A stretch of DNA of 64,000 nt from a bacterium (GTDB taxonomy: Bacteria > Myxococcota_A > UBA9160 > UBA4427). A program made the position numbers and the translations under genes. The notes under the pieces were generated by a model. That model was given only the letters and a program-made list of their open reading frames with translations. It was not told where the DNA came from and ran no database searches. The DNA is taken from contig JANSYR010000014.1 in the NCBI GenBank assembly GCA_024742285.1, forward strand, positions 124,001 through 188,000, given 5' to 3'. This document shows, one piece after another, positions 31,015 to 36,684 of this stretch; within the stretch, counting starts at the first letter, position 1, and every line of letters begins with the position of its first letter.

Positions 31015-31040
31015 CCGGCCCCGATTCCCGGAGGTCCCCC

Positions 31041-32396
31041 ATGCCGAACCACGCCACCCGCGTCTACGACGACATGCTCGAGATGCTCTCGAACGCGGAC
31101 AACCCGACGCCGATGGTGCGTCTGAACCGTGTCCTGCCCGAGGGCATGAAGGCGAAGGTCTACGGCAAGCTCGAGTGGTACAACCCCTTCGGCTCCGTGA
31201 AGGACCGCGTCGCCGCGAACCTGATCAAGGATGCCGGCGAGAAGGGGCTCCTGGCGGAAGGCCAGCAGCTCGTCGAGCCGACCAGCGGCAACACCGGCAT
31301 GGGCCTGGCGATGATGGCGAACGCGAAGGGCTACTCGCTCACGACGCCGCTCTCGAACAAGATCCCCGCCGAGAAGCGGATCATGCTGAAGATGTTCGGG
31401 ACGAACGTCGAGGAGCTCGAGGACGATTTGTGACCGGCCCCTGGGTCCCCGGAGGGGGCCATCGCACGCGCCATGGAGCTCGGCGACAAGCCCGAGTTCT
31501 ACATGCCCAACCAGTACGAGAACGAGGCCAACCTCGAGGCCCACGTCCATTCGACCGGTCCTGAGATCTGGCGTCAGACCGAAGGCAAGGTGACCCACTT
31601 CGTCGCCGGGCTCGGCACCTGCGGCACGATCACCGGCAACGGTCGCTTCCTCAAGGCCAAGGACCCGAGCGTCCAGGTGATCGCGGTGCACCCCTCGGAA
31701 GGGCACGACATCCCGGGTGTCCGCTCGATCAAGCAGCTGGAGCTCACGAAGCTCTTCCTACCCCACGAGTACGACGCGCTCGTCGAGGTCTCCGACGAGG
31801 AGGCGTTCGACATGTGTCTCCGCCTGAACCAGGAGGAGAGCATCATCGCGGGGCCGAGCTCGGCGATGGCGCTCGTCGGCGCGCTCAAGGTGATCGAGGA
31901 CGATCCCGACGCCGTCGTCGTGGTCATCTTCCCGGACAATGCCTTCAAGTACGCGTCGACCTTCGAGCGGCACTTCCCCCAGTACCGCGCCGCCCGCGCG
32001 GACGAGGGCGTCGCGATCGGCGAGCCGTCGGCGAAGGAGCAGCTCTTCGGCACGATGATCGAGAACGCGCGGAGTCCGCACACGACCTGCGAGATCGCCG
32101 ATCTGAAGGCCGGGCTCGAGAGCGACCTGAGGCCGCTCGTGATCGACGTCCGGATGCCCGAGATCTTTGCGAACCAGCACGTGTCCGGGGCGGTCAACAT
32201 CCCGACCGCGGAGATGACCGATCGCCAGGCCGAGCTCCCGGAGGATCGCGACCATCCGATCGTCACGGTCTGCAATCGCGGCAACCTCTCGCTCCAGGGC
32301 ATGCTCGTCCTGCAGTCGCTCGGCTACCGGAACGTGCGCAGCCTGAACGGCGGGACGGTCGCCTGGGCCGAGGAAGGTCTCCCGACCGGCGACTAG
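31041..32396 (+). CDS. Cysteine synthase/CBS-like PLP enzyme fused to rhodanese, with in-frame UGA (candidate selenoprotein)
   Basis: One 452-codon frame interrupted only by TGA at 31431-31433 (codon 131). Before it lie the PLP lysine region GSVKDRVAANLI (Lys54) and TSGNTGMGL. After it, in the same frame, come AIARAMELGDKPEFYM, GPEIWRQTEGKVTHF, the phosphate-binding GLGTCGTITG and a C-terminal rhodanese domain with active-loop Cys411 (TVCNRGN). Neither half is a complete PLP enzyme, and the only ATG after the stop (31473) has no Shine-Dalgarno. From memory, homologues read D-D-L-C-P-A-P-G here, so the UGA stands at a Cys position. A 7-bp hairpin with a GGA loop starts 11 nt after the UGA. Expected role: PLP-dependent sulfur (or selenium) amino-acid chemistry linked to sulfur transfer. 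The alternative is a Cys-to-stop mutation or base error. Confidence 0.75.
31431..31460 (+). promoter_or_regulatory. UGA codon and bacterial SECIS-like hairpin
   Basis: TGA (31431-31433) is followed after 10 nt by GGTCCCC (31444-31450), loop GGA (31451-31453) and GGGGGCC (31454-31460). This is a 7-bp stem with one G-U pair. The apical loop begins 17 nt after the UGA and has G at its first two positions; published bacterial SECIS rules ask for a 16-37 nt distance and a G in the first two loop positions. Codons CCT, GGG and GGG inside the hairpin are uncommon in this gene, as if the RNA fold were under selection. Confidence 0.55.
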
Positions 32397-34575: not shown

Positions 34576-36684
34576 ATGCAGGAAGTCGCCACGTTCTGCC
34601 GGATCTGCGAGCCGAGCTGCGGCCTGGTCGCCGAGGTCGAGGACGGTGAGCTCGTCGGCGTTCGCCCCGACCGGGCGCATCCCGTCACGAAAGGCTTCGC
34701 GTGCAACAAGGGGCTGGCGGGTCTCGAGCTGCACCGTGACCCGGACCGGCTCGACCATCCGATGCGTCGACGACCCGACGGGACCTTCGAGGCGATCTCC
34801 TGGGACACGGCGATCACCGAGATCGCGGAGCGGATCCGGGAAGTCCAGTCGCGCCACGGCACGAAGTCCTTCGCTTCCTACATCGGCAACCCGAGCGCGT
34901 TCAACGCCCTCGCCGGTCCGGCCATGGGATCGTTCCTCGGGCAGCTCGGCGTGCGCAAGAACTTCAGCTCCGGGACCCAGGACTGTGCCAACAAGTTCGC
35001 GGGGGCGGAAGCGGTCTACGGCACATCGACGTGTCATCCGATCCCGGACTTCGACCACACGGACTTCCTGCTCGTACTCGGCTCGAATCCGCAGGTCTCG
35101 CGTATGAGCTTCGTATCGATCTCGGACCCGATGGCGGCGATGCGGGGGATCCGGGACCGCGGCGGGCGTCTCGTCTACGTCGGGCCGCGCACGATCGAGA
35201 GCGCCCGCGATGGCGAGATGTTCCTCGTGCAGCCCGACACGGACGTCTATCTCCTCGCCGCCCTGATCGGGGAAGTCCTCGCGAGCGGCCGCGTCGACGA
35301 AGCGGTCGTCGCCGAGCACGCCTCCGGCTTCGAAGGCCTGGCGGCGATCGTTCGCGACTATCCCGCCGAGCGGGTGGCTCCGGTCGTCGGGACGACCGCG
35401 GAGTCCATTCGCCAGCTCGCCCGGGACTTCGCGGATGCGCCGAGCGCGTCGGCCACGCTCTCGACCGGCGTCAACATGGGCCGTCAGGGGACGACCGCCT
35501 ACTGGCTGATGCAGATGCTCGTCTTCCTGACGGGCAACCTCGACCGACGCGGCGGCAACCTCTACGGCCGAGGCTTCTACCCCGCCGCGCCACGGAGCGG
35601 GCGCACGGATCCGGCGAAGCATTTCTTCGACAGCGAGTGGGGGCGGATCCGAAAGATTCGCGGCTCGCTGCCCGGCAACCTCATGGCCGACGCGATCCGC
35701 TCGGCGACGGATCCGATTCGCGCGATGTTCGTGATGTGCGGGAACCCGGTGCTCTCGGTCGGGGGCGAGGCAGCGATGGCCGCGGCCCTCGAGGAGCTCG
35801 AGCTGCTGGTGGTCGTGGATCTCTATCCGAACGCGACGGCGGAGCACGCGGACTACGTTCTGCCCGCTGCGGACGGCTTCGAGCGCGCCGACTTGAATCT
35901 CTGCGGCCTCGGACTCCAGGCGCGGCCCTTCGTCCAGGTCTGCGATCCCGCCGTCGAGCCGCGGGCGGAGCGGAAGCCGGAGTGGTGGATCTTCGGCCGC
36001 CTCGAGCAGGCGCTCGGCCTCGACAGCGTGCTCGACGCCGACGCGAGCCCGCCGCTCTTCGGGCGACTCGATCACATGCTGCGTTCGACGGGACATACCG
36101 CCGCCGAGATCGCGCAGGCCCCGAGCGGGACCTTCGTCCTGCCCTCCCTCGAGCCCGGCCGCTTCTACGACGACGTGATCCAGACCGACGACGGACGCGT
36201 CGCCTGCGCCCCGCCGGTCTTCCATGCGGAAGGCGCGATCGAACGGATGGCGGTGATCTTCGAATCGCTCGCCGCGGAGCCCGACGATCGGCTCAAGCTG
36301 ATCTCGAAGCGGGAGCCCTCGATGCACAACAGCTGGATGCAGAACCTGCCGAAGGTGCGCGGACGCCATCGGGAGCCGCGCCTCTGGCTCCATCCGGAAG
36401 ACGCATCGCGCCTCGGAATCGCCGAAGGAGACCGCGTGCGCGCGCGGAACGCATTCGGCGAGATCGACGTGGCGGCGGCCCTCGATGACGGGCTGGCGAA
36501 AGGCGTCGTGGCGATGCCCCACGGCGGCGGTTTCCAGGGCTCGCCGGCACTCCGTTTCGCCGCGGAGCGACCGGGCGAGAACGTGAACCGGCTCCTGCCC
36601 CACGGCCCGGGGAGCTTCGAGCCCCTGTCGGGGCAGGCGTTCATGACCGGGATCCCGGTCGAGGTCGAGCCGGCGGTCGGCTAG
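34576..36684 (+). CDS. Molybdopterin-dependent oxidoreductase (DMSO reductase family)
   Basis: 702 residues. An N-terminal [4Fe-4S] set Cys8, Cys11, Cys15 and Cys43 (CRICEPSC, then KGFACNKG) leads into the bis-MGD fold: AISWDTAITEIAERI, GSFLGQLGV, LLVLGSNPQ and YVLPAADGFERAD. A C-terminal domain IV follows (GIAEGDRVRARNAFGEIDVA). A Cys in SSGTQDCANK is a candidate metal ligand. No Tat signal is present, so it is probably cytosolic. No small subunit or membrane anchor is adjacent, which suggests a stand-alone enzyme. Start ATG 34576 is preceded by GAAGAAG; the frame upstream is noise. It converges on the BVMO 2 gene with 12 nt between stops. Confidence 0.88.
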   Translation: MQEVATFCRICEPSCGLVAEVEDGELVGVRPDRAHPVTKGFACNKGLAGLELHRDPDRLDHPMRRRPDGTFEAISWDTAITEIAERIREVQSRHGTKSFASYIGNPSAFNALAGPAMGSFLGQLGVRKNFSSGTQDCANKFAGAEAVYGTSTCHPIPDFDHTDFLLVLGSNPQVSRMSFVSISDPMAAMRGIRDRGGRLVYVGPRTIESARDGEMFLVQPDTDVYLLAALIGEVLASGRVDEAVVAEHASGFEGLAAIVRDYPAERVAPVVGTTAESIRQLARDFADAPSASATLSTGVNMGRQGTTAYWLMQMLVFLTGNLDRRGGNLYGRGFYPAAPRSGRTDPAKHFFDSEWGRIRKIRGSLPGNLMADAIRSATDPIRAMFVMCGNPVLSVGGEAAMAAALEELELLVVVDLYPNATAEHADYVLPAADGFERADLNLCGLGLQARPFVQVCDPAVEPRAERKPEWWIFGRLEQALGLDSVLDADASPPLFGRLDHMLRSTGHTAAEIAQAPSGTFVLPSLEPGRFYDDVIQTDDGRVACAPPVFHAEGAIERMAVIFESLAAEPDDRLKLISKREPSMHNSWMQNLPKVRGRHREPRLWLHPEDASRLGIAEGDRVRARNAFGEIDVAAALDDGLAKGVVAMPHGGGFQGSPALRFAAERPGENVNRLLPHGPGSFEPLSGQAFMTGIPVEVEPAVG

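Follow-up and report, generated by a model that had tools for sequence, protein, structure and literature searches.

The gene considered here lies within a 64,000-nucleotide stretch of contig JANSYR010000014.1 (hereafter the window), which belongs to a bacterial genome of 6.5 Mb in 56 contigs that is 95% complete. Its main features are collected in Table 1. The reading frame from 31041 to 32396 is open except for one TGA, which corresponds to residue 131 of 451, and it is intact on either side of this codon, as stated in the initial annotation. The domain layout given there is also correct: the PLP lysine K54, in the context NPFGSVKDR, is encoded before the TGA, and the GTCGT loop (residues 192–196) and the rhodanese domain with Cys411 are encoded after it. 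The Pfam PALP match extends over both sides of the TGA. The gene stands alone, flanked by a MaoC-like gene and an SDR gene on the other strand. In the same region a molybdopterin oxidoreductase gene (34582–36681, + strand) has an open frame without an in-frame TGA.

Table 1. Features of the cysteine-synthase-like gene, in coordinates of the window
Feature	Position	Strand	Basis
Likely ribosome-binding site, GGAGG	31030..31034	+	6 nt 5' of the ATG at 31041, seen in the sequence
Probable selenoprotein coding sequence, 451 aa with U131, stop TAG	31041..32396	+	Open frame, Pfam domains, downstream dN/dS 0.06–0.29
PLP-dependent cysteine-synthase-like domain, residues 18–299, PLP lysine K54	31092..31937	+	Pfam PF00291, E 5.9e-63; Foldseek TMt 0.92 to 2bhs
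TGA, probable selenocysteine 131	31431..31433	+	TGA in 10 genes; Cys in other readable members
Putative SECIS hairpin GGUCCCC-GGA-GGGGGCC, 7-bp stem, 3-nt loop	31444..31460	+	Invariant in 10 genes; -11.8 kcal/mol; lowest silent-site variation of the gene
Phosphate-binding loop GTCGT, residues 192–196, Cys194 codon TGC at 31620–31622	31614..31628	+	C194 invariant in A2; found only with Cys/Sec131
Rhodanese domain, residues 354–444, Cys411 codon at 32271–32273	32100..32372	+	Pfam PF00581, E 1.5e-16; C411 invariant

The encoded protein combines a fold-type II PLP domain, with its PLP lysine and TSGNTG loop, and a rhodanese domain with the catalytic cysteine C411. When solved structures were searched with a profile, CysM of Salmonella and E. 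coli ranked first, over residues 22–306. CysM (O-acetylserine sulfhydrylase B; PDB 2bhs and 2jc3) has the same fold (36% identity to 2bhs; TMt in Table 1) and shares the PLP lysine, the TSGNTG loop and a PG(I/V)R motif. However, it lacks the short insertion that bears residue 131 (DDLC/U-P-A-P), carries GTTGT in place of GTCGT, and has neither a rhodanese domain nor selenocysteine (Sec). The curated NCBIfam cut-offs for CysK and CysM are not reached, the best score being 271 bits for cysKM against a cut-off of 344; among the best 25 of 41 NCBIfam matches, none exceeds its cut-off and none is a selenoprotein model. Judged by these scores, the protein is a CysK/CysM relative in a subfamily of its own, outside the curated sets. 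An AlphaFold model built from 52 rows reached a mean pLDDT of 88.4, against 72 for a poor first model from nine rows; Foldseek matches to the 52-row model are cysteine synthases and cystathionine beta-synthases. Relative to CysM, a strand and the helix after it are separated by a short insertion, and residue 131 is part of it; with a mean pLDDT of 65, residues 131–140 belong to the less certain portions of the model. From CysK structures, the loop that contains residue 131 presumably borders the mouth of the active site.

The distribution of codon 131 was surveyed at two scales. A search tolerant of stop codons among 118 relatives of the source genome recovered the one-TGA gene in six further genomes of the same genus and in one of a second genus. 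A family scan of 84,980 species' genomes returned 80 members, spread over eight phyla according to their deposited titles: codon 131 is TGC in 47, TGT in 25, TGA in seven and an unreadable TGN in one, so that 72 of the 80 encode cysteine. Ten distinct TGA genes, each from a different genome, are thus available (the window gene, G001–G006, G010, L065 and L120); the G010 copy is a fragment at a contig end, and every full-length copy has kept its length and frame. All readable homologues without TGA have cysteine at residue 131, and the D-D-L-C-P-A-P-G segment named in the initial annotation turned out to be their exact motif. The rhodanese-fused Cys131 proteins, whose hosts include Acidobacteriota, Planctomycetota, Gemmatimonadota, Verrucomicrobiota, Actinomycetota and others, are full-length orthologues (54–65% identical) with the same motif DDxLCPAPGAPEGAI; Cys194 and Cys411 are common to both forms, the difference being a cysteine codon instead of UGA.

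In a maximum-likelihood tree the ten TGA genes form a single clade (support 100/99) inside 74 Cys genes, and a single change from Cys to Sec therefore suffices. The tree indicates that Sec replaced an otherwise invariant cysteine once, in one clade. The nearest Cys forms are L066 and L067, and both genomes carry selA. In the class to which the window belongs the gene is present in eight of 91 genomes, always as the Sec type and confined to two genera: this patchy presence suggests that it was acquired from outside the class. No match to the gene was found in the plasmid collection searched. Two Sec copies, L120 and L065, sit in metagenome-assembled genomes (MAGs) titled Acidobacteriota and Planctomycetota, and L120 is placed within the clade of the window's genus; either the MAGs are mislabelled or a selenoprotein gene has passed from one phylum to another. 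In sampled pairs dN/dS 3' of the TGA is 0.06–0.29, which shows that the part after the TGA is translated and useful.

The hairpin downstream of the TGA is at the place given in the initial annotation. Its loop begins 17 nt after the UGA, and stem, loop and spacing all satisfy the limits given for bacterial SECIS elements, namely a loop of 3–9 nt, a stem of 4–16 bp, a G in the first two loop positions and a spacing of 16–37 nt (PMC13188914). Of the off-preference codons to which attention had been drawn, both GGG codons are conserved, whereas CCT is not. Silent variation in the Sec genes drops to 0.083 over codons +1 to +10 after the TGA, against 0.378 for the whole gene; of 400 windows along the gene these codons have the smallest value, and only two of 20,000 random codon sets were equally low. 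The Cys genes have no such dip at the same codons (0.64 against 0.54). A 20-nt block, GGGTCCCCGGAGGGGGCCAT, closely encloses the hairpin and is identical in all ten Sec genes, with variable sites flanking it on both sides. The block is conserved in TGA genes only, and the Cys relatives have no conserved SECIS block. Recurrence of the TGA in ten genes and the silent-site minimum behind it place the signal beyond chance.

The stem is invariant in the ten genes and paired in 100% of cells, so that it shows neither covariation nor compensatory changes. The structural evidence consists instead of the silent-site suppression and the breakage of a competing fold: in a longer stretch bases just 3' of the TGA can pair with the same 3' arm, but this pairing is disrupted in some rows, whereas the 31444–31460 hairpin is disrupted in none. 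Fold energy was rejected as evidence, as a 33-nt stretch is no more stable than its shuffles (z 0.33). A search of the region with Rfam gave chance matches only and no SECIS family.

The host genome possesses the complete machinery on which the proposal of a selenoprotein depends. Matches were obtained for SelA (522.9 bits), SelB (283.9, over the cut-off) and SelD (259.4), together with a tRNA-Sec whose anticodon is UCA (67.8 bits). A SelW-like (Rdx) gene of the same genome (L193, G000:C9:213887-214096) serves as positive control: it has a TGA at the CxxU position, which recurs in two sister genomes (L194 and L195), the motifs being CGRU and CASU. The cell thus has the means to make and insert Sec, and it carries a standard selenoprotein gene. 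With selA in 96 of the 118 genomes related to the window, Sec is generally used in this order; selA is also retained in G007 and G008, two genomes of the window's genus without the Sec enzyme.

These observations make it highly probable that the UGA is read as Sec and that the product is a CysM-like PLP enzyme fused to a rhodanese. SelB and tRNA-Sec(UCA) would decode the codon, directed by the hairpin. The initial annotation holds on nearly every point, and each refutation check run on it turned out in its favour. A conventional reading, by contrast, would make the UGA a true stop and the locus a pseudogene or the source of a 130-aa fragment, with a fresh start at 31473 for a 307-aa ORF that covers the remainder. 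Mechanical ORF calling yields exactly these two ORFs, and without Sec decoding the frame does close at 31433, but ten genes retain the TGA and purifying selection is strong in what follows it, frame and length are retained in all full-length copies, the codons directly after the TGA are under extra silent constraint, and the 307-aa product would have neither the PLP lysine nor the substrate-binding TSGNTG loop. Because selection acts downstream of the TGA, a stop or pseudogene is excluded for practical purposes. A base error, raised as part of the competing view in the initial annotation, would mean that sequencing or assembly turned a TGC or TGT into TGA; this is less credible still. The window does come from a draft assembly, but a base error is excluded, since nine further genomes, assembled independently and in different projects, have the same TGA, which makes ten genes in all, and the SECIS block is conserved solely where the TGA is present.

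Two further possibilities concern how the UGA is decoded and to what end. In some bacteria tRNA-Cys species with anticodon UCA occur, and such a tRNA, acting with SelB, or another unusual tRNA could insert cysteine or some other residue in place of Sec; cysteine would be functional too, given that relatives have it at column 131. The genome, however, encodes a canonical tRNA-Sec(UCA), selA and selD and has an ordinary CGRU SelW-like gene, and since the standard Sec system is complete, decoding by an odd tRNA is improbable, if slightly less so than a true stop. The other possibility accepts Sec and sees in it a selenium switch: the full enzyme would be made when selenium is available, and termination at the UGA would follow when it is not, so that the cysteine route tracks selenium supply. 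Such behaviour follows from any in-frame Sec-UGA, and two more cysteine-synthase-like genes without TGA (L002 and L003) are present in the genome. Nothing, on the other hand, favours regulation over catalysis as the driver of the Cys-to-Sec change, and as an explanation in its own right the switch is unlikely. Selenium-dependent shut-off may be a consequence of Sec decoding, and it sits beside the main explanation rather than competing with it.

If the UGA is indeed read as Sec, the role of the residue may be approached through its partner. All 23 rows from two subfamilies have both Cys or Sec at position 131 and cysteine at 194, and 38 other PALP rows have neither; the phosphate loop elsewhere in the family reads GTGGT, GTTGT or GTSGT as opposed to GTCGT. 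As the two subfamilies may share an ancestor, the pairing is a strong hint and not a record of many independent events, and one ancestral event may account for it. The second cysteine-synthase-like subfamily (L018, L160, L161 and L162) is apparently uncharacterised; it has DDLCP-DHPKDGAI and GTCGT and no rhodanese. The presence of Cys131 in these proteins implies that the role of residue 131 needs no rhodanese in the same chain.

The full 451-aa product would act as a CysM-like PLP enzyme of cysteine synthesis and catalyse beta-replacement on an activated serine; it probably makes cysteine or an S-substituted cysteine. Whether Sec131 and Cys194 form a reversible selenenylsulfide at the mouth of the active site is an evenly balanced matter. 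A more tentative proposal is that the pair relays sulfur to the PLP-aminoacrylate, with the persulfide of rhodanese Cys411 as donor; the main alternative use of the pair would be a pure redox on/off switch. Taken as a whole, the idea of a Sec-dependent cysteine synthase, the first known PLP enzyme with Sec, in which Sec131 takes sulfane sulfur (or selenium) from the rhodanese and with Cys194 passes it to the aminoacrylate, is similarly speculative.

Operon evidence for sulfur assimilation comes from the Cys relatives only. At 20 Cys-form loci, which in the tree belong to Planctomycetes and Verrucomicrobia/Opitutae (L070, L073, L082, L097, L112 and about 15 others), a conserved divergent gene lies upstream; at L073, the one member checked, Pfam identifies it as a sulfite/nitrite reductase. 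About 2.5 kb further, a conserved 186-aa protein (L082:2948-3508) has no Pfam match. At 16 Acidobacterial Cys-form loci (L071, L079, L096, L107 and 12 others) a JAB peptidase gene is directly downstream, and the operons inspected continue with genes for a ThiS-like protein, a ThiF-rhodanese, an Rrf2 regulator and a cysteine-desulfurase-like enzyme. Pfam analysis of one such operon gave these same identities, the last gene being a class-V aminotransferase. The tails of the Ubl proteins at the JAB operons, for example ...VAGGSGR, run past GG. Both neighbourhoods suggest a link of the Cys forms with sulfur assimilation. The sections of Iyer et al. (2006, PMC1779556) on ThiS/JAB/E1/cysteine-synthase operons describe a subtype 4c, Acidobacteria included, and the Acidobacterial Cys forms sit in operons of this kind; in those sections the rhodanese domain is listed on the E1 protein. 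The Sec-form gene of the window differs from these operons in being solitary. When the Acidobacterial ThiS-like protein was sought in the genus, the window genome gave no match and the others weak matches only, and a thiocarboxylate route is therefore not supported for the Sec form.

The bacterial selenoproteins known so far are mostly thiol-type redox proteins. A 2026 review lists 119 prokaryotic selenoprotein families, which include no cysteine synthase and none named as a PLP enzyme (PMC13188914), in agreement with the suggestion that this is a candidate new selenoprotein. The rhodanese selenoproteins of that catalogue, forms 1–5, also combine a rhodanese domain with Sec, but their Sec motifs are different (UxxS, UxxG, CxU and UxxxxU): in the window enzyme it is the PLP domain that has Sec, and the cysteine of the rhodanese is retained. 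The part of the deep-Sep study covered here (PMC12013277) makes no mention of a Sec cysteine synthase. A literature search on Sec in cysteine synthase or sulfhydrylase returned nothing relevant. The Sec form of the cysteine-synthase-like subfamily would thus be a new selenoprotein family, with prior mention possible in supplementary candidate lists (PMC8318568; the groundwater study, ref. 66 of PMC13188914).

Automated annotation would cut the product short at residue 130. Because the replacement was a single change and close Cys sisters, L066 and L067, exist in Sec-using genomes, a swap of one residue would directly test what Sec offers over Cys. If the proposal is true, selenium would have a new chemical setting here, namely a PLP enzyme that takes part in sulfur assimilation. 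Selenium supply would then be tied to cysteine synthesis, and the cell's own cysteine route would be selenium-dependent.
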